Source: Acidobacteriaceae bacterium (GTDB lineage Bacteria; Acidobacteriota; Terriglobia; Terriglobales; Acidobacteriaceae). From it: 64,000 nt of DNA. Where the stretch lies: positions 1-64,000 of the forward strand of contig PLHW01000008.1 of the NCBI GenBank assembly GCA_003139095.1, written 5' to 3'. This document shows, piece after piece, positions 20,496 through 39,519 of this stretch; position 1 is the stretch's first letter; each line of letters begins with the position of its first letter. The position numbers were made by a program, and so were the translations under genes. The notes beneath the pieces were generated by a model, which saw nothing but the letters and a program-made list of their open reading frames with translations, made no database searches and was not told where the DNA came from.

Positions 20496-22865
20496 ATGTT
20501 GAATTCTAATGATCTTGCTGTGAGCTCGGAACCGCCACTCCCGTTAGCAAGCCGCGCATCGCCGAAGCTTCGCGCCGTTCTGGTTCTCATCGGTTTCACC
20601 GCGACAGTTGCTCAGATCGTTCTTCTGCGCGAGTTGATGGTCGTCTCCTATGGCAACGAGATCTCGCTTGGAGTAATGCTTGCCTCCTGGCTTCTGTGGA
20701 CTGCGCTGGGGAGCAGCGTGCTCGGCCGGTTCGCAGCCCGGGCATCGAATCCGGCGAAGCTCATGGCCGCATTGCAGGTCTTGCTCGCGGTTCTGTTGCC
20801 CGCGACCGTCTTCGCGGTGCGTGCTACCCGCGGTCTGTTTCACGCGTTTCCGGGAGAACTTCTCGGACCCGCCCCGATCTTTCTCGCCTGTCTGATCTCA
20901 TTGAGTTGCTTCTGCGCTGTATCGGGCTGTGCGTTTGTTGCGGGCGGCCGGTTCCTTGCCCGCGAATCCGGCTCCTCGGCCCCGGTCGCGGTCAATTCCG
21001 TGTACTTGCTGGAGGCGGCGGGCTCGGCACTCGGGGGAGTTCTGGCCAGCCTGGTTTTCCTCCGCTCGCTGAACTCCCTGCAGATTGCATTTCTGATAAG
21101 CGCCCTGAATTTGATGGCCGCAGCCTTTCTGAGCCTGCGCCAGCGATCGTATCGGCTGGCGACGGTTGCGATCTTGTTCGTCGCCTTTGTAGTTGCGGCT
21201 CTGCCGCAAGGCCGCCGGCTGGAAGCCGTCTCTCTCGCCCGCCTCTGGCCTGGCTTTCGCGTGGTTGATACTCGCAATTCCGTGTACGGGAATCTTGCGG
21301 TCGTTGAAACAGGCGGAATTCGCAGCCTGCTCGAGAACGGACTATTGATGTTCAACGCTCCAGACCCTGCCTCCGCGGAAGAAGCTGTGCACTTCGCTTT
21401 ACTCGAACACCCGTCTCCGAAGAGTCTTCTTCTTATTGGAGGCGGTGCCGGCGGAAGCCTGCTCCAGGCTTTGCAACATCGCACTCTTGAACGGGTGGAC
21501 TATGTTGAACTCGATCCCGCCGTGCTCGAACTGGCGGACAAATATTTCCCTGAGCAATGGGCTGCGGCGCGCGCGGATCCGCGGGTGCACGTTCACCATG
21601 CCGATGGACGGCTGTTTCTGAAAACCACGCGCCAGGTTTTTGACGTCATCATCGTCAATCTCCCCGCCCCGCAGACCGCGCAGCTGAATCGCTTCTATAC
21701 TTCCGACTTTTTTCGCGAGGCCGCTGAGAAGCTTGCCGGCGACGGAGTTTTCTCCTTTCAACTGCATGCCGCGGAAGAATACCTGAGCCCCGATCTGAGC
21801 GCCTTCCTACGCTGCATCGTCAAGTCACTGCATGAGGCATTTCCCGTGGTGCAGACGATCCCCGGCGACATCGTGCATTTCTTCGCAACGAAGCGGGATG
21901 GCATTCTGGCCGCCGATTCCGCCGAACTCCTCTCGCGTCTGCGATCGCGGCACTTGAAAACCAGCTATGTGCGCGAGTACTACATTCCGTTTCGCCTGAT
22001 GCCCGACCGCGTCGCCGATCTCGACGAGAACATTCGGCCTCTGAACGACACGCCCATCAACCGCGATTTGGCGCCCATCGCTTACTACTTCGACGTCGAA
22101 CTCTGGAGCACGCAATTCAACCGCGAATATCAGCATGTTTTCGAGTCAATCGCGCGAATTCGATTTGGACGGCTGGTGGAGTGCGCTGCCGCTCTGCTGG
22201 TTGCCATTGCTGTGGTCATCTTCTGCTGGCCCTGGCATGATGCCCGCATTCGTGGGAGCGCCGGCTTTTGCGCTGCGCTCACCGGCCTGACGATGATCGG
22301 TCTGGAAGTGCTGCTCCTGTTGGGGTTTCAGGCGATTTACGGCTACGTCTACCACCAACTGGCCATCTTGATTGCACTTTTCATGTCGGGCATGGCCCTG
22401 GGGAGTTGGCGGCGTCTGCGGTTCGCCCGACGCTCTTCCAATGCGCCCGCGCTGCGTGCGGCTCTCACAGAGTTGGCAGGTCTGCAAATTCTGGCCGCTT
22501 TGTCTCCACTCGCGCTGTATCTCGTACTCAATTCGCTGGCCGGCACAAGAAGCATGAGTACGCTGGCGGTGGCGAGCCTGACTCTGTTCCCGGCACTGGC
22601 TTTGCTCGCGGGCGCGCTGGGTGGCTACGAATTCGCTCTCGCTACGGAGGTCTACTTTGCAGATGCGCAATCGCAACCGGCGAGCATGGGAATGCTCTAC
22701 GCCGTGGATCTGATCGGTGCGTGCCTGGGTGCGCTCGTGCTGAGCGCGTTCCTGCTTCCGCTCTTCGGTTTCCTCAAGGCGGCGATGTTCATTGCGGCGG
22801 TGAACCTGGTACCGGCTCTCCTGGCTTTCCGCGTTGGTTGGGCAAAGCGGGAACTTCAGGCGTGA
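20496..22865 (+). CDS. Multi-pass membrane protein with spermidine-synthase-like domain
   Basis: From the ATG at 20496 the product has 789 residues. Its layout is an N-terminal membrane region of about seven helices (residues 30-240), a Rossmann methyltransferase/SpeE-like domain (about 255-480), and a C-terminal membrane region of about seven helices. The SAM-binding loop reads LLLIGGGAGGSLLQAL and is followed by VDYVELDPAVLELADKYFP. Real aminopropyltransferases have GGGDGG and an Asp in the later IxDxTDP motif. Here these are GGGAGG and IVNLPAPQ, so polyamine synthesis is doubtful. The architecture matches fused MFS/SpeE-like proteins common in Acidobacteria. The 3' end overlaps the convergent amrBA gene by 77 bp. 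Confidence 0.8.
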   Translation: MLNSNDLAVSSEPPLPLASRASPKLRAVLVLIGFTATVAQIVLLRELMVVSYGNEISLGVMLASWLLWTALGSSVLGRFAARASNPAKLMAALQVLLAVLLPATVFAVRATRGLFHAFPGELLGPAPIFLACLISLSCFCAVSGCAFVAGGRFLARESGSSAPVAVNSVYLLEAAGSALGGVLASLVFLRSLNSLQIAFLISALNLMAAAFLSLRQRSYRLATVAILFVAFVVAALPQGRRLEAVSLARLWPGFRVVDTRNSVYGNLAVVETGGIRSLLENGLLMFNAPDPASAEEAVHFALLEHPSPKSLLLIGGGAGGSLLQALQHRTLERVDYVELDPAVLELADKYFPEQWAAARADPRVHVHHADGRLFLKTTRQVFDVIIVNLPAPQTAQLNRFYTSDFFREAAEKLAGDGVFSFQLHAAEEYLSPDLSAFLRCIVKSLHEAFPVVQTIPGDIVHFFATKRDGILAADSAELLSRLRSRHLKTSYVREYYIPFRLMPDRVADLDENIRPLNDTPINRDLAPIAYYFDVELWSTQFNREYQHVFESIARIRFGRLVECAAALLVAIAVVIFCWPWHDARIRGSAGFCAALTGLTMIGLEVLLLLGFQAIYGYVYHQLAILIALFMSGMALGSWRRLRFARRSSNAPALRAALTELAGLQILAALSPLALYLVLNSLAGTRSMSTLAVASLTLFPALALLAGALGGYEFALATEVYFADAQSQPASMGMLYAVDLIGACLGALVLSAFLLPLFGFLKAAMFIAAVNLVPALLAFRVGWAKRELQA

Positions 22866-24378
22866 GGTCGCGCGAGATTTCCGTTTCTCCAAAAACAACC
22901 GCCGTGAACATGAAGAGATCGGCATCTTTGTCGCGCCAAGCCTTCGCCGGCAATCCGGCCTTCATCGCTGTCTCGTCGAGCAATGTGTTTCGATCCCAGT
23001 GTTGCTCGGGCGCAACCTGTGGAAGCAGAAGCCCGCGCGTGCGCCCCTTCACGATCATGAGTCCGTGCTCGCCAACCTTGATCTGATTTGTATCCGAGAC
23101 GCGCCGCAACGGAGAGAGCACGGAAACCTCGTACTTCAGCAAAGGCAATTCGCTGGCGGCCACCGGATGAAAGCGGGGATCCCGTAAGGCGGCATGGGCG
23201 GCAACATCGCGAACGGTCTCCGCCAGAGGTTCCATCGCCACCGTGTATCCAATGCAGCCGCGAAGCTCGCCATTTTCCTTCAGCGTGACAAAAGCGCCGC
23301 GATCCCGCGTCAGATTGGCCGGCTGGTTCGCAGGAAGCTCGTAACCCTTATCCTCTTTTACGACGGATTCGACTGATTTTCTGGCGATCTCCAGCAGTTG
23401 CCGTTTTTCGGATGACGTCAGCGAGAACTTTGGCGTCGCCTCACGGCGGCCTTCCTCTTTCAGGAACGCCACCGCGCTGTACCCTACAACGCGACTGCGG
23501 TCGCCCGTCACGTCACCGGAGTTTGCGTACTTAATCACCTGCGCGCGAGTCGCTCCCAGCCGCTCGGCCGCGATCATGGCAGCAACGATGGGCGCTCCTC
23601 CGCACGCCTCCCATGTGCGGTTTGCAAAATTATCGGAAAGCGTCAGGTAATCCCATTCGCCAATCGCGTTCAACGTTTTCCCATCTATCGTGACAGCCTC
23701 AGCGTACGGGTGGTAGTGCGAGAGATCGGAGCTGGCAACGATCAGCGTGTCTGTTCCTCGAATCAACTCTGCGAGGGCGACTCCCAGAGCGCGGCTGGCC
23801 TCGTAGCTCTGTTCACCCATGATGATCGGCACCAGTTGGAAATCACCGAGCACCCGCTGCAAGAACGGTAATTGATCTTCGAGCGCGTGTTCCGGACCGG
23901 CAGCCGTCGGAACATGCCCACTGCTGGAGAGTCGGATTTCCGGGTTCAAGCTCACAAGCTTCCGGGCGAATTCCTTGTCCACGGGAACCTTACCGAGGGG
24001 AGTGACATAAGCGTAGCCGTCATAAACCGAGGTAAACGAAAACCCCTCGAAGTGGGAAGGCGCGATTACCACGACGCGATGCGTAGGACGCCCTTTTATC
24101 ATTGCGTAACTATAGCCCGCCACGCCGCCTGAAAACGGATACCCGGCGTGGGGCGCGACCAGCGCGACGACTTCCCCCTCATGGGCGGGCACGCTCGCAT
24201 GCGCAATGAATCCGTCCACCATCGCGGCCAGTTCTTTTGGATCAGCAGGATAAAAGGCCCCCGCGACCGCGGCTTGCCGAATGTGTTCTGATTCCGCCGG
24301 CGGGCTCCCAGCAACCACCGAGCAGCCCACCAGGAAGAGAATTGCAATCGGCAGCGTAAATCTGAGTCTGGCATTCAT
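22789..24378 (-). CDS. amrBA: AmmeMemoRadiSam system AmrB-AmrA fusion lipoprotein
   Basis: A single 529-residue protein joins a Memo domain (AmrB, about residues 35-310) and an AMMECR1 domain (AmrA, about 335-505). Memo landmarks are HAGYPFSGG, APSHFEGFSF, HALEDQLPFLQ, SSDLSHYHPY and CGGAPIVAAM. The AMMECR1 landmark is LRGCIGYT. The N-terminus is a lipoprotein signal peptide (residues 1-19, FLVGC lipobox), so the fusion is predicted to be exported and lipid-anchored. The gene starts 24 bp after amrS in the same operon. The biochemical role of this widespread three-part system is not established. Convergent overlap with the SpeE-like gene affects only the C-terminal Pro-rich tail. Confidence 0.9.
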   Translation of the reverse strand: MNARLRFTLPIAILFLVGCSVVAGSPPAESEHIRQAAVAGAFYPADPKELAAMVDGFIAHASVPAHEGEVVALVAPHAGYPFSGGVAGYSYAMIKGRPTHRVVVIAPSHFEGFSFTSVYDGYAYVTPLGKVPVDKEFARKLVSLNPEIRLSSSGHVPTAAGPEHALEDQLPFLQRVLGDFQLVPIIMGEQSYEASRALGVALAELIRGTDTLIVASSDLSHYHPYAEAVTIDGKTLNAIGEWDYLTLSDNFANRTWEACGGAPIVAAMIAAERLGATRAQVIKYANSGDVTGDRSRVVGYSAVAFLKEEGRREATPKFSLTSSEKRQLLEIARKSVESVVKEDKGYELPANQPANLTRDRGAFVTLKENGELRGCIGYTVAMEPLAETVRDVAAHAALRDPRFHPVAASELPLLKYEVSVLSPLRRVSDTNQIKVGEHGLMIVKGRTRGLLLPQVAPEQHWDRNTLLDETAMKAGLPAKAWRDKDADLFMFTAVVFGETEISRDLTPEVPALPNQRGKPGEPVPGSPPQ

Positions 24379-24402: not shown

Positions 24403-25686
24403 TCAGCTCCACACACCCGGAATCGCATGCTGGCAGTATTCGCACTTTCCTTTGCGAATATGATTCTGCGTGACCGTGAACCCGGCACGTTCGATGAGGA
24501 GATGGCGGCATTTTGGGCAATACGTGTTCTCGGCGCGATGTCCCGGCACATTTCCGATGTAAACGTACTGCAAGCCTTCGGCGTCTGCGATTGCCTTGCC
24601 GCGTTCCAGAGTTTCAGCCGGCGTGGGCGGAAGGTTCTTGAGCAAATACAAAGGCTGAAAGCGCGTGAAATGGATAGGCACGTCGGTACCGAGATTGGCC
24701 TTGATCCAGCGCGCCAGATCGCGGAACTCGGCGTCACTGTCATTCAGCGTGGGCACGACCAGATGCACGATTTCCATCCACTTCGCTTCCTTGCGCGTGG
24801 TGACCAGCGTGTCCAGAATGGGTTTGAGCTCCGCATCGACCACCTCGCGGTAGTACTTTTCCGAAAATGACTTCATGTCAATTTTGATCGCGTCCACGTG
24901 CCGACAGAGGCGCTTGAGCGGTTCCTGCTGAATAAAGCCGTTCGACACCACCACCGCTTTCAGTCCCTGCTCGCGAACCGCATCGGCAGCGTCGGTGACA
25001 AACTCGTTCCACACCGTTGGCTCGCTGTAGGTGAAAGCCACGGCTGGACACTGGTTCTGTTTGGCCAACGACGCGACGTCGGCAGGTGGCATATAGCGCG
25101 CCGGCAACTCTTCCGGCTTGGCCTGCGAAATCTCCCAGTTCTGGCAGAACTTGCAGGTCACATTGCAGCCCACCGTAGCCAGCGAGAAGGCCACGATCCC
25201 GGGATGAAAATGGAAGAAGGGTTTCTTCTCGATCGGATCGACGTGCGCGGCCGCGACGCGCGAATGGACCAGCGTATAGTACGTTCCTCCGCGATTTTCG
25301 CGGATGCGGCAATGTCCACGCTCACCGGCCGCGACGACACAGCTGCGCGGACACAGGTGGCACCGCACGTTCTTGCCCGGCAGCTTTTCGTAGAATCTAG
25401 CCTCCACGCGAAAGCGCGCATCGTCTTCTGCGACAGACGACAGCGCCAGGCCGTGCGCCGGCGTGCCACGAAGACAAACGGCTGCGCAAGCGGCCACGCA
25501 GGGCAGAGTTGCAGCTTTTAGGAATGTCCTGCGATCTAATGTCCTGCGATCCGTGGGCGCGCCAGCGGTGGTCAACAACGGGACGGAGAATCCCACATCG
25601 GAGACACTGTCGATCAATTCATCCTGTTGATGAAGGCCCTGAAGAGAAGGACCGACGGCGTGGGCGGCGGTTGTGGCATGAAGCAT
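24403..25686 (-). CDS. amrS: AmmeMemoRadiSam system radical SAM enzyme with Tat signal
   Basis: This is a 427-residue member of the radical SAM family with the CxxxCxxC cluster motif CNVTCKFC (Cys174, 178, 181). A preceding Cys set (CHLCPRSC ... C, residues 109-126) and a C-terminal zinc-like pair (YCPKC ... CEYC) are typical of AmrS. Unusually, the N-terminus holds a twin-arginine signal (DRRTFLKAAT followed by an Ala/Cys-rich hydrophobic stretch to PAHG, residue 79), preceded by about 50 residues that could be a mis-called extension. The ATG has a GAGGTG site. It is the first gene of the operon with amrBA. The reaction is unknown. Confidence 0.9.
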   Translation of the reverse strand: MLHATTAAHAVGPSLQGLHQQDELIDSVSDVGFSVPLLTTAGAPTDRRTLDRRTFLKAATLPCVAACAAVCLRGTPAHGLALSSVAEDDARFRVEARFYEKLPGKNVRCHLCPRSCVVAAGERGHCRIRENRGGTYYTLVHSRVAAAHVDPIEKKPFFHFHPGIVAFSLATVGCNVTCKFCQNWEISQAKPEELPARYMPPADVASLAKQNQCPAVAFTYSEPTVWNEFVTDAADAVREQGLKAVVVSNGFIQQEPLKRLCRHVDAIKIDMKSFSEKYYREVVDAELKPILDTLVTTRKEAKWMEIVHLVVPTLNDSDAEFRDLARWIKANLGTDVPIHFTRFQPLYLLKNLPPTPAETLERGKAIADAEGLQYVYIGNVPGHRAENTYCPKCRHLLIERAGFTVTQNHIRKGKCEYCQHAIPGVWS

Positions 25687-27023: not shown

Positions 27024-28682
27024 TCAGACCGTTGACATTGTAAGCCGCTTCGGGCCCGCCTCCAAGATATGTTCTGGGCATTCCGACATCATCAATTTGA
27101 AATTCTCGATGAAGCGCGCCGCGAGCGCGTCGTACTTCTGGAAATACTGCTCCCTGCTCGGCCAGGTATTTGCCGGATCGAGAATCTGAGGCGAGACGCC
27201 TTCGCACTGTTCCGGCACGTCAAAGCCAAAGACAGGATCTTTCTTATATTTCACCCTGAGCAGCGACCCGTTGAGAGCTGCGTTCAACAATGCCCGCGTG
27301 TGATGGATGCTGATGCGCTTCCCTACCCCAAAAGGACCGCCGGTCCAGCCGGTATTCACCAGCCACACATTTGCATCATGCTTCTGGATTTTCTTCTTGA
27401 GAAGCTCCGCGTAGATGAGCGGATTGTGCACCATGAACGGGCCACCAAAGCATGTGCTAAAAGTGATCTCGGGCTCGACGCCCAGGCCGATTTCGGTGCC
27501 CGCGATCTTGCTGGTGTAGCCGGAGATGAAGTGATAGATCGCCTGGTCCGGTGTCAGCCTGGCGATCGGCGGCATCACACCCGAGGCATCGCACGTGAGA
27601 AAGACAACATTCTTCGGATGGCCCGCGTGCTTTTCGGGCAAATGGTTCTTGATATAGGCAAGGGGATAAGCCGCGCGGGTATTCTCCGTTACCGTGTAAT
27701 CATTCAGGTCGAGGTGCCGAGAGACGTTGTCGAAAGTGACATTCTCGAGCACGGTGCCGAACATTCGCGTGCAGGCGTAGATTTGCGGCTCAGCCTCGGG
27801 CGACAGGCGGATGACCTTGGCATAGCAGCCATCTTCGAAGTTGAAGACGCCAGTGTCGCTCCAGCCGTGCTCGTCGTCTCCGATGAGATAGCGCCTGGGA
27901 TCGGCGGAGAGAGTCGTCTTGCCGGTGCCGGAGAGTCCGAAGAAAATCGCGACGTCGCCGTCGGTACCCACGTTGGCCGAGCAGTGCATGGAGAGAATGC
28001 CTTGTAGCGGCAGCAGGAAGTTCAGTACGGTAAAAATTGTCTTCTTGATTTCGCCGGCGTAACTGGTGCCGCCGATGATCGCGAGCCGCTCGCGGAAGTT
28101 AATAATGATGAACGTCTCCGTGCGCGTGCTGTCCACCATCGGCGAGGCCTGGAACGACGGCGCTGCGATGACGGTGAACTCCGGCACATGCCGCCGCAGC
28201 GCGTCTTGATTGCGTGTTTTGAGGAACATGGTGCGCGCAAAGAGGCTGTGCCATGCCTTTTGCGTGATGATGCGGACGGGCAGGCTGTGTTCGGGATCAG
28301 CGCCGGCGAAGACGTCCTGCACGAAAACATCGCGGCCCTGTAGATAGCCTTGTAGACGTGTAAGAAGTGCGCTGAAACCTTCGCCCGTGAATGGACGATT
28401 GTATTGACCCCACCAAACCTTGTGTTCGGTAGACTCTTCGTGCACGACGAACTTATCCGCGGCAGCGCGCGCCGTATGTTTGCCGGTGTTGACGACGAAC
28501 GGTCCGAGGTGAGAGATACTACCCTCGGAGCGGAAAATGCTCTCCTCGTAGAGAGCCGGAGTCGGCAGATTCCAATAGACTCGCCTTAAGTTGACGAGTC
28601 CATGATTTTCGAGACCGTAGCAGCTGGCGAGCCTGCCAGCCTCGTTCACCGCTGGGGATTGAACGTCGAGATAGATGTTCAT
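27024..28682 (-). CDS. pckA: Phosphoenolpyruvate carboxykinase (ATP)
   Basis: The 552-residue enzyme converts oxaloacetate and ATP to phosphoenolpyruvate and CO2. The key residues of the family are present: Arg in TGKHTARAAADKF (E. coli Arg65), SYAGEIKK (Tyr207, Lys212/213), MHCSAN (His232), the P-loop GLSGTGKTT (Lys254), GDDEHGW (Asp268/269) and TENTR (Arg333). Small deviations (HTARAAAD for the usual FTGRSPKD, FEDG for FEGG) are not in the main catalytic set. The ATG at 28682 overlaps the TGA of the aminotransferase gene as ATGA; an ATG at 28688 adds two residues. It is the last gene of an operon with a citrate-synthase homologue and an aminotransferase, all oxaloacetate-related. Confidence 0.93.
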   Translation of the reverse strand: MNIYLDVQSPAVNEAGRLASCYGLENHGLVNLRRVYWNLPTPALYEESIFRSEGSISHLGPFVVNTGKHTARAAADKFVVHEESTEHKVWWGQYNRPFTGEGFSALLTRLQGYLQGRDVFVQDVFAGADPEHSLPVRIITQKAWHSLFARTMFLKTRNQDALRRHVPEFTVIAAPSFQASPMVDSTRTETFIIINFRERLAIIGGTSYAGEIKKTIFTVLNFLLPLQGILSMHCSANVGTDGDVAIFFGLSGTGKTTLSADPRRYLIGDDEHGWSDTGVFNFEDGCYAKVIRLSPEAEPQIYACTRMFGTVLENVTFDNVSRHLDLNDYTVTENTRAAYPLAYIKNHLPEKHAGHPKNVVFLTCDASGVMPPIARLTPDQAIYHFISGYTSKIAGTEIGLGVEPEITFSTCFGGPFMVHNPLIYAELLKKKIQKHDANVWLVNTGWTGGPFGVGKRISIHHTRALLNAALNGSLLRVKYKKDPVFGFDVPEQCEGVSPQILDPANTWPSREQYFQKYDALAARFIENFKLMMSECPEHILEAGPKRLTMSTV

Positions 28683-29896
28683 AACCACTCCCTGACCAGC
28701 TTGCGCTCGCCGAGAAAGAGCTCATTAGCCGAGTTGGGATCGAGGGCCCACTTGATGCGATCGAGGCCTTCGGTGATGTCGCGGATGGTTCCACAATAAC
28801 TGAGCCGCAGATGGCCTTCGAAGCCAAATTCTTTGCCTGGCACGGTGACAACGCGCACTTTGTCGAGCAGGAATCGCGACAACTCCTGGGAATTCTTCAT
28901 GTAAGCGCTGAAATCGGGGAAGCAGTAGAAGGTACCATCGGGCTTTGTCACCTTCACGCCGGTGAAGGCCCTCAGGCGGTCCATCATGACGTTGCGGTTG
29001 TTTTCCAGGGTGACGCGCAGGCTTTCTACGCACGACTGCACGCCATTGAGCGCGCCCACGGCCGCCCACTGGGATGGCGAGGCCGGCCCGGAGGTCTGTT
29101 GCGACTGGATGGTTGCCATGGCTGCGACGAGCTGTTTATTGCCGATGGCCCAGCCGATGCGAAACCCGGTCATGGCATAAGATTTCGAGACGCCATTGAT
29201 CACGACGAGTTTCGATTCCTCGATCGGCGCTTTGGTGAACTCATAGCAGATCGGAGCAGTCTTGGCATCGAAGACCAGCCGGTTATAGATATCGTCCATG
29301 ATGAGATAGAGGCTCTTCTTTTCGCAGAATTCGACCATCTCACGGATGAAATCGCGGGAGTACATCGCGCCCGAGGGATTGTTGGGGCTGTTCAGAATTA
29401 TGGCCTTGGTGTAGGAACCGACGGCAGCGACGATCTCGTCAAAGCTCGGACAGAATGTTCCATCTTCCGCAGTAATGGGCACAGGAATGCCGCCCGCCAG
29501 CTTGATCATCTCGGGGTAGCTGACCCAGTAGGGAGCGGGAAAAATGACTTCTTCTTTCGGATCGAGGATAACGTGCAGCAGCACCATCAACGCCTGCTTG
29601 GCGCCGCCGGAGGCGATGACGTTCTTCGCCGAAACCAGCTTCTGATAGTGCTCCTCTGTGTAGCGGACGATGGCTTTCTTCAGCGCGGGAATTCCATCCG
29701 GCGGCGTATAGCGGATCTCCCCGGTATTGAGCACCGCCGAGCAGTTGATAACGGCGTCGATCGGCGTTTTGCTCTTGGGCTCACCGCCTCCGAGGTGGAT
29801 AACGGGTTCCCCTTTTTCGCGGAGCAGAGCGGCCGTTTCATTTAGCTTGAGAGTTGCAGATTCCCGAATAGTCCGGGCAAGCTGGCTAAGACTCAT
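28679..29896 (-). CDS. Aspartate-type PLP-dependent aminotransferase
   Basis: This 405-residue class I/II aminotransferase resembles bacterial aspartate aminotransferases of subgroup I-gamma. Landmarks are TGEIRYTPPDGIPALKKA, GAKQAL, APYWVSYPEMIKLAGG, NSPNNPSG, MDDIYNRLVF (PLP-binding Asp), and the PLP lysine in GVSKSYAMTGFRIGW. The C-terminal carboxylate-binding Arg is in HLRLSYCGT. In place of the usual GEPDFDTP the sequence reads GEPKSKTP, so substrate preference may differ. It is translationally coupled to pckA downstream and follows the citrate-synthase homologue by 125 bp. Oxaloacetate/aspartate interconversion is the likely reaction. Substrate assignment is by family and context only. 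Confidence 0.88.
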   Translation of the reverse strand: MSLSQLARTIRESATLKLNETAALLREKGEPVIHLGGGEPKSKTPIDAVINCSAVLNTGEIRYTPPDGIPALKKAIVRYTEEHYQKLVSAKNVIASGGAKQALMVLLHVILDPKEEVIFPAPYWVSYPEMIKLAGGIPVPITAEDGTFCPSFDEIVAAVGSYTKAIILNSPNNPSGAMYSRDFIREMVEFCEKKSLYLIMDDIYNRLVFDAKTAPICYEFTKAPIEESKLVVINGVSKSYAMTGFRIGWAIGNKQLVAAMATIQSQQTSGPASPSQWAAVGALNGVQSCVESLRVTLENNRNVMMDRLRAFTGVKVTKPDGTFYCFPDFSAYMKNSQELSRFLLDKVRVVTVPGKEFGFEGHLRLSYCGTIRDITEGLDRIKWALDPNSANELFLGERKLVREWL

Positions 29897-30021: not shown

Positions 30022-31344
30022 TCAGCAAGCCCAACTCCCCGCTTCCGATTCGACAACCGCGTGCAGTTCAGAGGGAGGAAGTTCACGCTGCTCGCGCCCA
30101 GCATAGATCTGCCTCGGCTGCGCCATCTCTTGCTCCGGATCGCTGAGCATCTCGTGCCAGTGGGCAAGCCATCCAGCGGTGCGCGGAATGGCTAACAGCA
30201 CCGTTGCCATTTCACGCCGAAAGCCCATGGCCTGGTAAATCATCGCGGAATAGAAGCTGACGTTGGGATAAAGTCTGCGTATCACGAAAAAGTCATCTTC
30301 GAGCGCGATGCGCTCAAGTTCAAGCGCAATCTCGACTTTCGAGTCGCGTCCGGTCACGTCGAATACCTGTTCCGCCGTCCGTTTGAGGATCTGGACGCGA
30401 GGATCGTTATTCGTGTATACGCGGTCTCCGAATCCGGCAAGTTTGCCGCGCGTTTCCTTCACTTCTTTGATGAAGGCAGGCACGTTCTGCCGGGAACCGA
30501 TCCCCTCGATCATCTTGAAGACTTCTTCGATGGCGCCCCCGTTGAGCGGACCGGCGAAAGCGGCGGAGGCAGCGGCAGTCGTGAGGTAAGGATCGCTTTG
30601 AGCGCTGCCCACGCAACGCATAATGTTCGTACTGCAATCCTGTCCATGGTCGGCATGCAGGATGAACAAAGTGTTCAAGGCGTGAGCCAGCACGATATTA
30701 GCCATGTACTTTGGTTCGACCATTTTCCACAGCATGTTCATGAAGTTTTCGGTATAGCTCAGATCATTGTCCGGAGGCACGTAGGGATAACCCAAGCTAT
30801 GGCGGTAGGATATGGCGGCGATCGACGGAACCTTAGCGACGATGCGCTTGATCTGCCGCAGACGGTTGGAAGGATCGCAGACATCGTGCGCTTCCGGATA
30901 CAACGTAGAGAGCGCCGACAACGTGCTTACCAGCGTGGCCATGGGATGGGCATCACGCAGAAAACCTTCCATGCAGTGTTTGGCGGTTTCGTCGAGCATG
31001 GTGTGATGGGTGATTTCACTTACCCAGCTCTCGCGCTCGGGTCCATGCGGCAGTTCCCCAAACGACAGGAGATATGCAATGTCGAGAAAGCTGTGGCACT
31101 CTGCCAGAACCTCGATGGGATAGCCCCGATAACGCAGGATGCCGTGATCGGCATCCATGAAGGTGATCGAACTGCGGCAAGAGGCCGTATTGAGAAACGC
31201 AGGATCGTATGTGGCCAACCCATGGTTCTCGGGGCCGGTTTTGATCTTCTGCAAATCTGTCGCCCGGATGGTTGTGTTCTCGATGGGAAGCAGGTAGGTC
31301 TGGCCGCTGCGGCTATCAGTGACTGTGAGCGTGTCGCGTGACAT
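30022..31344 (-). CDS. Citrate-synthase homologue lacking the catalytic triad
   Basis: The 440-residue protein is clearly of the bacterial type II citrate synthase family along its whole length (TASCRSSITFMDADHGILRY, NDLSYTENFMNML, HADHGQDCST, QPRQIYAG). However, all three catalytic residues known from E. coli GltA are replaced: His264 by Asn268 (GPLNGG for GPxHGG), His305 by Asp307 (GFGDRVY for GFGHRVY) and Asp362 by Ser363 (NVSFYS for NVDFYS). Residues that bind oxaloacetate are kept (His230, Arg316, Arg388, Arg411). I checked the three codons (AAC, GAC, AGC) on the minus strand. The start has a GGAGGA site. It may be a regulatory pseudoenzyme or have a different reaction; true citrate synthesis is unlikely. 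Confidence 0.9.
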   Translation of the reverse strand: MSRDTLTVTDSRSGQTYLLPIENTTIRATDLQKIKTGPENHGLATYDPAFLNTASCRSSITFMDADHGILRYRGYPIEVLAECHSFLDIAYLLSFGELPHGPERESWVSEITHHTMLDETAKHCMEGFLRDAHPMATLVSTLSALSTLYPEAHDVCDPSNRLRQIKRIVAKVPSIAAISYRHSLGYPYVPPDNDLSYTENFMNMLWKMVEPKYMANIVLAHALNTLFILHADHGQDCSTNIMRCVGSAQSDPYLTTAAASAAFAGPLNGGAIEEVFKMIEGIGSRQNVPAFIKEVKETRGKLAGFGDRVYTNNDPRVQILKRTAEQVFDVTGRDSKVEIALELERIALEDDFFVIRRLYPNVSFYSAMIYQAMGFRREMATVLLAIPRTAGWLAHWHEMLSDPEQEMAQPRQIYAGREQRELPPSELHAVVESEAGSWAC

Positions 31345-31977
31345 AGAGGATTCCTCCTTGCTGCCTTAGCGTTCCGGATCCTGCTTAAGAGGAGACCTCG
31401 ACTGTCCCTGCGGTTCCGGGGAGCAGAGTCGCGATCTACCGGAGAGGCGCAATCCCTCCTTTTGCATCTTCTGCGGCGATGTACCAGTTCCGCAGTGAGA
31501 AACATCACAACGGAGGGTGAGACATACCCCTTGGAGCTGTGACCATGATTTGAGCCGAACAACATAAGACTTTGCCACCCATATCGTGCGATACAGGTTC
31601 CCTCTGCCCCACAAAACCTTGATGGTTCTTTCTGCCAACCCCTGTGATTTTGTTCTCCGGTTCAGTACTAAACACTCCTTCGTGCGCGTGAGGGCGACGA
31701 AGCAACTCCACCGTTCTTCCTCCATCTCGGACTCGGATTGCCTTCTTTCACAGGGAAAACATCACGTCTGTCTCTGGCGATGTGACGGCGCCCACGGCAC
31801 AGGGATCTGTCTCGCTCCGCGTCTTCAAGCGTGCGGGAGTCGTCACCTCCCAGAAGCCCGTTTCTGGATCACTTCCTGTTTGCCCACGATCCCCCGGGAA
31901 CTACTTTTTTCCCCTCTTCTGCCACACGCAGAAACAAATGCGAACGCGGTCGGGCGCGTGCATCGAAGGTGACGGTG
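31345..31977. other. Gene-free stretch before the citrate-synthase homologue
   Basis: About 630 bp between the start of the citrate-synthase-like gene and the end of the DoxX-like gene. No frame is convincing. It must contain the promoter of the oxaloacetate operon, but I cannot point to a clear -35/-10 pair. Confidence 0.45.
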
Positions 31978-32763
31978 CTAGCGCTTGTTCACGGCGAGCC
32001 AGGGCATGCCGCGGTAGGAATCCGCCACCACCCAGGCGCCGGTCGTCAGCGCCCAAGAGAGCACGGCCTCGTTCCATTGAAAGACGCTCTTGGGGCCTGC
32101 CGCCGCCACGATGGGTACCCACACCAGCAGCGTGAACATGCCCATCTGCAACGCCGAGAGCGCGGCCGCCAGCCGTGCATACACACCGATGATCACCGCC
32201 ACGCCCGCCGCGATGAATGCACCGCCGGTGAAATACGCCCAGGCCACGTGCGCCGGCAGCCAACCAGGCACCAGCGAGACGGTGTTTTTGAGATAGGTGA
32301 AATGGGCCACACCGAAGGGGATCAAGGCTAGGCCGTAGAACACTCTCGCGATGCGCAGACCCTTATCGCCTGTGGCGAAACTGAGGCGCTGCCTGTCCCA
32401 GTCAGTGGCGAACCAGGCATACAGTACCCAGGCGGCCGCTACCATCACCGCGGTCTGGCACCATGGCCAGTAAACGTCCACGGTGAACGTGCGCAAGAAG
32501 CCGGGCACTCTCAACACCAGCAACCAAAGTAGGAGGAAGGCGAGCAGCACGCGGGCAGCGGGGGCGGCGACGCGCTCCCAGAGCAGGCCTATGCCAGATG
32601 CTAGGGAGATGAAGGCGCAGAGATAGGCCAGTACTTCGCGAAGCGGCACACTCTGCGGTACCGGCTGCCATATCGCGGTGAAATTGCCTTTGATCAGGCC
32701 CAGGATTCCGACGCCAATCATGGTGGCCGCAAAGACCACATGACCCGCACTTGCGATGCGCAT
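31978..32763 (-). CDS. DoxX-like multi-pass membrane protein
   Basis: From the ATG at 32763 (ribosome site GGAGGA, 8 nt) the product has 261 residues and about eight hydrophobic helices, many starting with GVGILGLI-like or [12 protein letters not shown] motifs typical of the DoxX/DoxD superfamily. Members are membrane subunits linked to quinone redox or stress responses. The exact role is unknown. It is the last gene of a run on the minus strand after a MEDS protein, histidine kinase and two response regulators, at a distance of about 200 bp, so it may be their target rather than co-transcribed. Confidence 0.75.
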
Positions 32764-32964
32764 TGCCCTATCCTCCGCTGGGGTGTTCGAACGATCAGTG
32801 ATTCTCACACAGAGCCCAGTGCTGGTATCGCCGCTCAACACAATGCAGGCTGCGGGTCGAGTTCCGTAGCGCCCGCAATTTTCTTGGGTATGGTGCAGAA
32901 CCTCTGTTCCTTCTGTCCTGACCGCAACAACTCGAAAAGTACATTGTCCCAAAGAGACAGATGA

Positions 32965-36602: not shown

Positions 36603-37120
36603 GGTGCATTCCTCCCACATGAATCTTCGCAACGTGGGTCTCTACACAGCTTTCGTCTCCTGAGCGGTTCCCATGTACCCGCCCCACTACCAACACTTAG
36701 GCCGGATTGGAAAAGATCGCGCAGATGTGTGCGCTCTGGCAGAGCGGAAACCCCTCGAGGTGGACTTGATCCCCAGCGGTTCGCGACCGTGCGGGATTAC
36801 GGGACTGACCATCGAGGGGCATAAGCAACCTCCGTGCCGTGGAATTCGAATCCGCAGCGAGCCATGAATGGCCCGTTCTCAATTGTTGAAAAAGAAGTGA
36901 TGCTGGGGTCCCCACATGACCCACGATATGTCCATTGTGCCATTTCAATCGCACGACTGCAAATTGTGGACAGCTCGCCCTCAACCCATGCCAAGGTGTC
37001 GACCGATACCATCGTCCAATAGATTCTTCTCCGCTCTTCTGGCTTAATCACCACTGTGCACCCCCTCCGAAAGAATCGGAAGCCTGCAGCGGACAATTTT
37101 CTAATGAAGGAGAATGCCCC
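36603..37120. other. Divergent intergenic region
   Basis: About 520 bp between the MEDS gene (minus) and the Ohr/OsmC gene (plus). It likely carries both promoters. I found no clear operator palindrome. A 125-codon minus frame (36797-37174) crosses into the OsmC gene and is not convincing. Confidence 0.5.
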
Positions 37121-37576
37121 ATGACAAACGCCATAACCCCAATCGAAAAGGTGCTCTATACCGCAAAAGCTCACACCACGGGCGGCCGTGATGGCGGAGC
37201 GTCACTCACTTCCGACGGCCGCCTTGATGTTAAGCTCTCGGTTCCGGGCACTCCCGGCACCGGCACCAACCCCGAGCAGTTGTTCGCCGCCGGGTGGTCG
37301 GCGTGCTTCCTGTCGGCAATCAAGATCGTGGCTGCCAGAATGAAAGTCAGGCTGCCGGCTGATCTCGCCATTGACGCCGAAGTAGACCTGGGCACAACCG
37401 GCGGAGGGTACTTGATCCAGGCTCGCCTCAACGTCAGCCTGCCGGGTGTTTCGCGCAAAGTCGCCCAGGCTTTGGTGGACGGCGCGCACCAGGAGTGTCC
37501 ATATTCCAAAGCTACACACGGCAACATCAATGTTGTCACGAACGTCGAAACCAAACCTGTGGCAAATGTTGCGTGA
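37121..37576 (+). CDS. Ohr/OsmC-family organic hydroperoxide reductase
   Basis: The 151-residue protein has the Ohr layout: EKVLYTAKAHTTGGRDGGA (N-terminal strand with the conserved Arg), GTNPEQLFAAGWSACF with the peroxidatic Cys, and HQECPYSKAT with the resolving Cys. It reduces organic hydroperoxides using dihydrolipoyl-type thiols in the cytoplasm. The ATG has an AAGGAG site. It is followed after 42 bp by the cytochrome P460 gene and then an epoxide hydrolase, forming a likely stress or detoxification operon. No OhrR gene is adjacent, but the divergent MEDS/histidine kinase operon may provide regulation. Confidence 0.9.
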   Translation: MTNAITPIEKVLYTAKAHTTGGRDGGASLTSDGRLDVKLSVPGTPGTGTNPEQLFAAGWSACFLSAIKIVAARMKVRLPADLAIDAEVDLGTTGGGYLIQARLNVSLPGVSRKVAQALVDGAHQECPYSKATHGNINVVTNVETKPVANVA

Positions 37577-37618
37577 TCCTGTGCGCGGACAAGCCGAAAA
37601 ACAAGAAGGAGGAACACT

Positions 37619-38152
37619 ATGAAACGGATCGCGTTCCTACTGGTTGCAGTCGCGGCGGTGGCCACCCTGGTCATCCACATGGCCCACGCATCTGGACACG
37701 CCGATGGAGAAGCTGCCCCGCTCTTCGGAATCAAAATCCCCCCCGGATACCGCGACTGGAAGTTGGTCTCTGTAGCCCACGAAGAAGGCGACCTCAACGA
37801 TATTCGCGCCATTCTGGGCAATGACACAGCGATCAGGGCGTATCGGGAAGAGAAGCTTCCGTTCCCCGACGGCACGATCATTGCCCGAATCGCTTGGAGT
37901 TACGTCCCCTCGGAGGAAAACAACAAAGTCTTTGGCCGTGCCCAATCTTTCGTTCCCGGGCCCGCCCCGGATTGGTACCTGCAGTTTATGGTCAAGGACT
38001 CAAGAAAGTACGCCGCGACGGGCGGCTGGGGGTTTGCTCAATTCAATAAGGACGGCAAACCTTCAGCGGATGAGGCAAAGCTCAAAACCTGCTTTCCCTG
38101 CCACGAGCCCGTCAAGGCTCGAGACTTTGTCTTCACCCGTTACGCACCCTAA
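37619..38152 (+). CDS. Cytochrome P460-family c-type haem protein
   Basis: The 177-residue protein starts with a signal peptide (residues 1-24, ending MAHA). It contains IPPGYRDWKLVSVAHEEGD, the usual N-terminal motif of cytochrome P460-like proteins, and a C-terminal haem c attachment motif CFPCH (CxxCH). It is predicted to be periplasmic. Well-studied P460 enzymes oxidise hydroxylamine or bind nitric oxide, but many homologues have no known substrate. The ATG has a GGAGGAA site. Context with Ohr upstream and epoxide hydrolase downstream suggests oxidative or nitrosative stress. Confidence 0.87.
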   Translation: MKRIAFLLVAVAAVATLVIHMAHASGHADGEAAPLFGIKIPPGYRDWKLVSVAHEEGDLNDIRAILGNDTAIRAYREEKLPFPDGTIIARIAWSYVPSEENNKVFGRAQSFVPGPAPDWYLQFMVKDSRKYAATGGWGFAQFNKDGKPSADEAKLKTCFPCHEPVKARDFVFTRYAP

Positions 38153-38184
38153 TTCCAAGAACCACTACAGAAAGGAACGAGGCG

Positions 38185-39519
38185 ATGACCGCACGCAAAT
38201 CAACCACAGCACAAGGCGGGAAATCCAAAACTGCCAAGAAGGAGGAGACGATGGCCCAAACCAGCGCTTCACAACAAGGCAGCAAACCTGCTGACAAGAA
38301 TGCTATTCGTCCGTTTCACGTGAAGGTTCCGGAAGCGGAACTTGCCGAACTGCGCAGGCGCATCAAGGCAACCAAGTGGCCTGAACGGGAAACGGTCACT
38401 GATGCATCGCAGGGCGTGCAGCTGGCGACCACTCAGGCGCTCGCGCGCTATTGGGCCACAGATTACGATTGGCGCAAGATCGAGGCGAAACTGAGCGCCC
38501 TGCCGAATTTCATAACCGAGATCGATGGACTCGACGTTCACTTCATCCACGTCCGTTCGAAACATGAAAATGCATTGCCGCTGATCGTCACCCACGGATG
38601 GCCCGGCTCGATCATCGAACAGATGAAGATCATCGATCCACTGACCAATCCCACGGCGCATGGCGGCAGCGCCTCGGACGCTTTTGACGTGGTGATTCCG
38701 TCAATGCCGGGCTACGGATACTCAGGCAAACCGACCGCGCCCGGGTGGGATGTTGCCCATATTGCGCGGGCCTGGGTCGTGCTGATGAAGCGCCTCGGGT
38801 ACACGAAATTCGTGGCGCAAGGCGGCGATTGGGGTGCGGTCATCGTCGATCAGATGGGCCTGGATGCGGCTCCGGAATTGCTCGGCATTCACACCAACAT
38901 GCCTGGCATCTTTCCAAACGACATTGACAAGGCGGCCTCCTCAAGGGCGCCGGCGCCATCCGGTCTGTCTGCCGATGAGAAGGTCGCTTACGAGCGTTTG
39001 CAGTTCGTCTATCAAAAGGGAATCGCCTACGGGTTCCAGATGGGTCTCCGACCGCAAACGTTGTACGGAATCGCGGATTCACCCGTCGGCCTCGCGGCTT
39101 ATTTCCTCGATCACGACGCGCGCAGCTACGAGCTGATCTCGCGCGTCTTTGCGGGAAAATCCGAAGGCCTCACGCGCGACGACATCCTCGACAACATCAC
39201 GATCGCCTGGTTGACGAACACGGCGCTTTCTGGCGCCCGTCTCTATTGGGAGAATTGGGGCAAACTCGGGTATTTCGATGCCAAAGGCGTCTCCATCCCG
39301 GTTGCCGTGAGCGTCTTCCCCGACGAACTCTATCCCGCCCCGCGGAGCTGGTCGGAGCAGGCGTATCCCAAACTGATCCATTACAACCGGCTCCCCAAGG
39401 GTGGTCACTTTGCGGCATTTGAACAGCCCCAACTTCTCTCCGAAGAGATTCGCGCGGGCTTCCGATCGCTGCGGTCAGGCGTGGCGGGGTCTGATGTGCC
39501 CCTCGCTAAAGCGGGCTAG
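38185..39519 (+). CDS. Epoxide hydrolase (alpha/beta-hydrolase)
   Basis: The 444-residue protein has an N-terminal low-complexity leader (Ala/Lys/Gln, about 40 residues), then the epoxide hydrolase N-terminal domain (IRPFHVKVPEAELAELRRRI) and the alpha/beta-hydrolase fold. The HGWPGS oxyanion motif, nucleophile Asp in QGGDWGAVI and catalytic His in LPKGGHFAAFEQP are present. It should open epoxides to diols. Start options include ATG 38185 and ATG 38251 (MAQTSASQQG, preceded by AAGGAGGAG). The latter has by far the better ribosome site and would remove 22 residues. It is the last gene of the ohr-P460 group. Confidence 0.9.
   Translation: MTARKSTTAQGGKSKTAKKEETMAQTSASQQGSKPADKNAIRPFHVKVPEAELAELRRRIKATKWPERETVTDASQGVQLATTQALARYWATDYDWRKIEAKLSALPNFITEIDGLDVHFIHVRSKHENALPLIVTHGWPGSIIEQMKIIDPLTNPTAHGGSASDAFDVVIPSMPGYGYSGKPTAPGWDVAHIARAWVVLMKRLGYTKFVAQGGDWGAVIVDQMGLDAAPELLGIHTNMPGIFPNDIDKAASSRAPAPSGLSADEKVAYERLQFVYQKGIAYGFQMGLRPQTLYGIADSPVGLAAYFLDHDARSYELISRVFAGKSEGLTRDDILDNITIAWLTNTALSGARLYWENWGKLGYFDAKGVSIPVAVSVFPDELYPAPRSWSEQAYPKLIHYNRLPKGGHFAAFEQPQLLSEEIRAGFRSLRSGVAGSDVPLAKAG

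Follow-up and report, generated by a model that had tools for sequence, protein, structure and literature searches.

The window analysed here, a stretch of 64,000 nucleotides from an Acidobacteriaceae draft genome (GCA_003139095.1, contig PLHW01000008.1), harbors a gene of the long-form GltA (citrate synthase) family on the minus strand (30022..31344). It encodes a protein of 440 amino acids, denoted as the CS-like protein, with the residues N268, D307, and S363 at the sites of the catalytic triad. The gene starts with an ATG (31344-31342) and ends with a stop codon (30024-30022), and the 440 codons show neither an internal stop nor a frameshift. A ribosome-binding-site-like AAGGAGG (31353..31359, minus strand), recognized by reading the sequence, is located 8 bases 5' of the ATG. 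Within 31346-31356, this ribosome-binding-like stretch can pair with bases just before the start codon (GAGG-AAT-CCTC), and a small hairpin may form over the start site.

Downstream, a gene for a PLP-dependent, aspartate-aminotransferase-like protein (28679..29896, minus strand) starts 125 bases after the CS-like stop codon; its product passed no NCBIfam cut-off among the models listed (25 of 71). The end of this gene is overlapped by 10 bases by the start of a gene for an ATP-type phosphoenolpyruvate (PEP) carboxykinase (pckA, 27024..28688, minus strand). The host has a further PEP carboxykinase gene of the same type (G000:C61:93931-95511), 56 percent identical to the first. The next gene upstream of the CS-like gene, separated by a gap of 633 bases, encodes a DoxX-like protein (31978..32952, minus strand), for which close matches were found in G017, G012, and G013; DNA alignment of the window with the surroundings of these matches recovered neither the CS-like gene nor its other near neighbours. 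Other parts of the window contain a Memo-AMMECR1 fusion adjoining a radical SAM protein (22789-24378 and 24403-25686) and a row of OsmC-like, cytochrome P460, and epoxide-hydrolase-like genes (36935-39519).

The aminotransferase-pckA pair is present in five of the 24 genomes of the genus, the host included (the others being G001, G002, G006, and G007), and the CS-like gene was seen next to it in the host genome only. Upstream of the pair, no CS-like gene was found in approximately 8 kb in G006 and in 1 kb each in G001 and G002; the contig of G007 breaks off within the aminotransferase gene. Around 80 canonical citrate synthase loci, the flanks covered (up to 8 kb, often less) contained no PEP carboxykinase gene, and a weakly similar aminotransferase (23-35 percent identity) was located near three of them. 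Since approximately 90 bases upstream of the aminotransferase gene appear partly alike by eye in the host and in G001, G002, and G006, which lack a CS-like gene at this place, the aminotransferase may keep its own promoter. A scan for sigma-70-like promoters found none, compared with 2.1 in shuffled sequences. One operon comprising the CS-like gene and the aminotransferase-pckA pair is hypothetical.

Family membership, catalytic residues, and substrate contacts

By descent, the CS-like protein belongs to the citrate synthases. It scores 368.6 bits against Pfam PF00285 (Citrate_synt; gathering threshold 27), covers profile positions 3-350 of 357, and shows no other domain in the Pfam search. 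A sequence search of the PDB matched long-form citrate synthases (best E 1.6e-123). Its likeness to long-form GltA (EC 2.3.3.16) extends over the full length, with 62-70 percent identity to the aligned long-form relatives, 42 percent to E. coli GltA (residues 42-422), and the same predicted fold. It differs from this family in the replacement of all three catalytic residues and of an arginine that acts across the subunit boundary, and in its profile scores. Both curated equivalog cut-offs, which define citrate synthase by function, are missed by the CS-like protein (NF004126, 475.1 vs. 505; TIGR01798, 455.4 vs. 485.15) and passed by the host's own GltA (585.9 and 561.4, respectively). Since both of these close NCBIfam cut-offs are missed and the own GltA lies above them, the citrate synthase activity of the CS-like protein has, judged from the sequence, very probably been lost.

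The host genome is a draft of 5.53 Mb in 75 contigs and is 98 percent complete. It harbors three citrate synthase genes, namely the CS-like gene, the gene of the own GltA (67.6 percent identity to the CS-like protein), and a short-form gene on contig 7 (31-32 percent). The latter two keep the catalytic set His/His/Asp (H/H/D), so that the canonical gltA for which the original prediction had advised a check does exist in this genome. The short-form citrate synthases/2-methylcitrate synthases (TIGR01800) share the superfamily with the CS-like protein, but they keep H/H/D, and the CS-like protein reaches only 259.7 against their cut-off of 421.3. The citryl-CoA lyase family also keeps the His/His/Asp set; its models (PRK06224) match the CS-like protein weakly at residues ~195-424, with all five scores far below the cut-offs.

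In the following, the reference is GltA of E. coli MG1655, numbered without the first Met. The CS-like protein carries Asn268 (codon AAC, 30541..30543, minus strand) instead of the catalytic His264 of E. coli, Asp307 (GAC, 30424..30426, minus strand) instead of His305, which is both catalytic and substrate-binding, and Ser363 (AGC, 30256..30258, minus strand) instead of the catalytic Asp362. These are exactly the residues and codons of the original prediction, the gene coordinates of which are also right, and the alignment around the triad, which it had called good, is unambiguous against E. coli GltA and the two best solved citrate synthases listed. H/H/D is found at these sites in each of 166 distinct relative stretches covering the core, a count that may hold some genes twice since it draws on two collections cut at different ends, and from which seven incomplete stretches, including two from the CS-like gene itself, and the E. 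coli row were left out. Four further sites identical in 166/166 of these stretches are altered in the CS-like protein (E234G, N236D, N272I, and R409Q). The catalytic His, His, and Asp correspond to His214, His253, and Asp307 of the Metallosphaera enzyme MsCS, as given in its description (PMC6386500). By this catalytic set, the protein with N268, D307, and S363 falls outside the citrate synthases.

The original prediction had further stated that the binding of oxaloacetate was kept, naming His230, Arg316, Arg388, and Arg411. All four residues are indeed present, as is His233 (E. coli His229), which we take to be oxaloacetate-binding. Arg411, on the other hand, was mistaken for an oxaloacetate contact, as it is the second Arg of an RPRQ motif and aligns with E. 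coli Arg409; the position of the cross-subunit arginine is occupied by Gln409. According to the MsCS description, oxaloacetate is contacted by Asn182, a residue not conserved among other citrate synthases, and by His253, Arg262, and Arg332, and citrate is contacted additionally by Arg351 from the other subunit, which points away from oxaloacetate (PMC6386500). By order and spacing, these five residues correspond to E. coli Asn232, His305, Arg314, Arg387, and Arg407. On the same basis, the four oxaloacetate contacts read Asp236, Asp307, Arg316, and Arg388 in the CS-like protein, so that two of four are kept. Asp236 (codon GAT, 30637..30639, minus strand) replaces the Asn identical in 166/166 relative stretches, and Gln409 (CAG, 30118..30120, minus strand) replaces E. 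coli Arg407, the role of which is taken from the MsCS data by spacing (PMC6386500). Of all five contacts described there, only the two arginines remain and the other three positions are now neutral or acidic; the set of three substrate arginines, of which the own chain provides two and the other subunit the third, is therefore incomplete. The claim of kept binding thus holds for Arg316 and Arg388, but not for the Asn236 and His307 positions (both Asp), the cross-subunit Arg, Glu234, or Asn272. Because positive charge is reduced and two acids are new, it is doubtful from the residues present that the CS-like protein senses oxaloacetate in the old pocket geometry.

Distribution and origin

Among the 24 genomes of the genus, the N/D/S set was found in the host only (1/24); citrate synthase matches were obtained in 23 of them, with the exception of G005 (75 percent complete). 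The genome closest in its GltA, G007, has a completeness of 72 percent. In G008, G009, and G010, the long-form gene is broken up into different frames and could be read in part, and two short fragments at contig ends were left out. These split gltA genes, L106/L111 (G008), L104 (G009), and L105 (G010), represent either sequencing errors or broken genes in the three drafts. Searches with the protein in overlapping genome sets of the genus (24), the family (398), and the class (399) gave nothing above 70 percent identity besides the CS-like gene itself; in the family set, 112/398 genomes contain a match to the CS-like protein with an E of 1e-100 or lower. When GTDB as a whole was scanned with six short peptides of the CS-like protein, 202 relatives were retrieved, and the best 80 of these 202 are all H/H/D. 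The motif GPLNGGA gave nine matches in 298 genomes of the order, the sole one inside a citrate synthase gene being that of the host's CS-like gene, and a scan of viral contigs found no relative. A clade of N/D/S homologues always linked to pckA and aminotransferase genes, as envisaged by the original prediction, was not encountered (1/24 genus genomes, 0/166 other stretches).

A quick tree places the CS-like protein inside the Terriglobales GltA group, at the end of a branch of 0.86 (median 0.074), and a more careful tree (46 of 95 rows) gives a branch of 0.92. Three genomes of the genus harbor a second canonical gltA with H/H/D (L090 in G001, L093 in G018, and L110 in G006), which forms a supported clade of its own apart from the main gltA. 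In tree tests, neither a tie of the CS-like protein to this second gltA (p 0.52) nor one to the main gltA of the genus (p 0.47) was rejected, and a grouping with just the own GltA plus its nearest relative gave p 0.068. The second canonical gltA could be the source of the CS-like gene.

Within the sequence and literature searches made, a member of the known GltA family with an N/D/S active site is new. The original prediction knew of no described citrate synthase with this triad, and none was found in the sequence searches or in the openly licensed literature, as judged from titles and abstract openings. In the same literature, and judged in the same way, neither a citrate synthase pseudoenzyme nor a gltA paralogue of Acidobacteria was found.

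Constraint on the gene and predicted fold

Pairwise comparison (NG86) of the CS-like gene with three canonical genes gave dN of 0.204-0.218 and dS of 1.53-2.47; the respective values of the own GltA against four others were 0.036-0.099 and 1.35-1.55. On the CS-like branch, pairwise maximum likelihood gave a dN/dS of 0.02-0.06, which is only rough since dS is saturated. The ratio is far below 1 over the whole branch and, stemming from a single sequence, covers the time both before and after the loss of the triad. The CS-like protein departs from the canonical residue in 27 of the 148 columns that do not vary among 91 canonical rows, as compared to 0-2 for each canonical row left out in turn. 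The most variable columns differ more frequently than the invariant ones (0.50 vs. 0.18), and variable columns are altered about as often as in six canonical rows used for comparison. With the triad set aside, the changed invariant columns showed no significant enrichment around the pocket, neither within 4 residues (11/46 vs. 13/99, p 0.085) nor within 3 residues (p 0.615), and this spread over the protein also fits relaxed constraint. GC3 is lower in the CS-like gene (0.68) than in the own GltA gene (0.80) and the two genes downstream (0.72-0.73). If the 18 percent of invariant columns that differ had been changed by neutral drift, approximately 80 missense changes across the gene would be implied, under which the frame stayed free of stops in 3 percent of the simulations; with only 44 neutral changes, this was the case in 17 percent. 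A simpler simulation, in which the gene of a relative drifted to 70 percent identity, left 0/300 stop-free.

Structure prediction with AlphaFold (45 sequences) gave a pLDDT of 84.1 and a pTM of 0.83 for the CS-like protein, in a model that rests on an alignment of canonical relatives; the own GltA with a like alignment reached 82.8 and 0.79. All 50 Foldseek matches listed are citrate synthases, the best being 9xau (TM 0.85, with a high rmsd of 9.5). The fold is thus predicted to be intact. Citrate synthases are dimers or hexamers, and the helices 134-148 and 158-183 presumably provide much of the dimer contact, as assumed from the pig and E. coli enzymes. In these helices, two of the 17 positions conserved at >= 95 percent are changed in the CS-like protein, both mildly; over all positions, 28/41 are identical to the own GltA, which is average for the whole protein. 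Since the conserved positions of both helices are nearly all kept, the CS-like protein could pair with the own GltA.

Possible roles of the CS-like protein

The combination of a replaced triad, an open frame, and a fold predicted to be intact suggests a role other than citrate synthesis. As in metabolic pseudoenzymes generally, the catalytic residues are lost, the (predicted) fold is retained, and an active paralogue is present. The best reading is that of a lineage-restricted GltA-family pseudoenzyme, seen in one genome only; that it is a kept one is given an even chance, and the mixed-dimer form described below takes about a third of this. The gene would be a fast-evolved extra copy of a Terriglobales GltA-type gene, maintained as a folded protein unable to make citrate.

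Several other explanations have to be weighed against this reading. A redundant extra gltA copy might have lost its constraint recently and be drifting in early decay, with no present function, which would agree with the occurrence in a single genome of the genus, the large number and wide spread of the changed invariant columns, and a GC3 below that of the own GltA and the downstream genes. Such drift would rarely leave 440 codons free of stops, as the simulations indicate, and variable columns still change more than invariant ones. The open frame, the dN/dS far below 1, and the predicted intact fold make a decaying gene unlikely, and this explanation is disfavoured. An artefact of assembly or sequencing is barely credible. 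The draft state of the genome and the single observation of the gene would allow for it, but the divergence from genus relatives runs through the entire gene, at 30-35 percent of residues, in an open frame, and both downstream genes have counterparts in genus relatives (aminotransferase, 82-85 percent and, over a part in G007, 89; pckA, 87-88 percent), so that the contig belongs to the genus.

It is also conceivable, if rather unlikely, that the fold now binds another ligand or catalyzes another reaction, with Asp236, Asp307, and Ser363 in a new site. N236D, H307D, and R409Q shift the charge in the same direction, and the predicted fold and low dN/dS also speak for it; however, none of the sequences searched has the same residue set, the sequence alignment shows no residue plainly taking over the role of base or acid, and the neighbouring genes do not point to a new substrate. 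The sensor of oxaloacetate (or citrate) in the old pocket that the original prediction had proposed could draw on the kept His233, Arg316, and Arg388 and on the downstream genes for PEP carboxykinase and the aspartate-aminotransferase-like protein. With acidic residues at the equivalents of His305 and Asn232, Gln at that of Arg407, and no other Pfam domain, it appears quite improbable. Of the metabolite-sensing pseudoenzyme originally proposed, the pseudoenzyme part is a fair description with respect to citrate synthase, given the lost triad, open frame, predicted fold, and canonical paralogues; sensing by means of kept binding is not well supported.

Returning to the kept pseudoenzyme, the protein may act as a non-catalytic partner that pairs with the own GltA in a mixed oligomer, a step that is a guess. 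Since citrate synthase sites use an Arg of the neighbouring chain, a CS-like subunit offering Gln409 in its place would weaken GltA in a mixed dimer and damp the formation of citrate. Oxaloacetate would thereby be left for the aminotransferase and the PEP carboxykinase encoded downstream. As a whole, this chain, from a pseudo-subunit with Gln for Arg to a throttled entry into the citric acid cycle and spared oxaloacetate, is speculative and on the improbable side. Because the active paralogue is encoded in the same genome, the pseudo-subunit idea is directly testable with two purified proteins.

Few enzymes of central metabolism are as well conserved as citrate synthase. The weight of the finding is limited, as it rests on a single gene of a single draft genome, but is raised by the rarity of changes at the triad residues. 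If the CS-like protein is indeed a working pseudo-subunit, it would represent a brake at the protein level on entry into the citric acid cycle.
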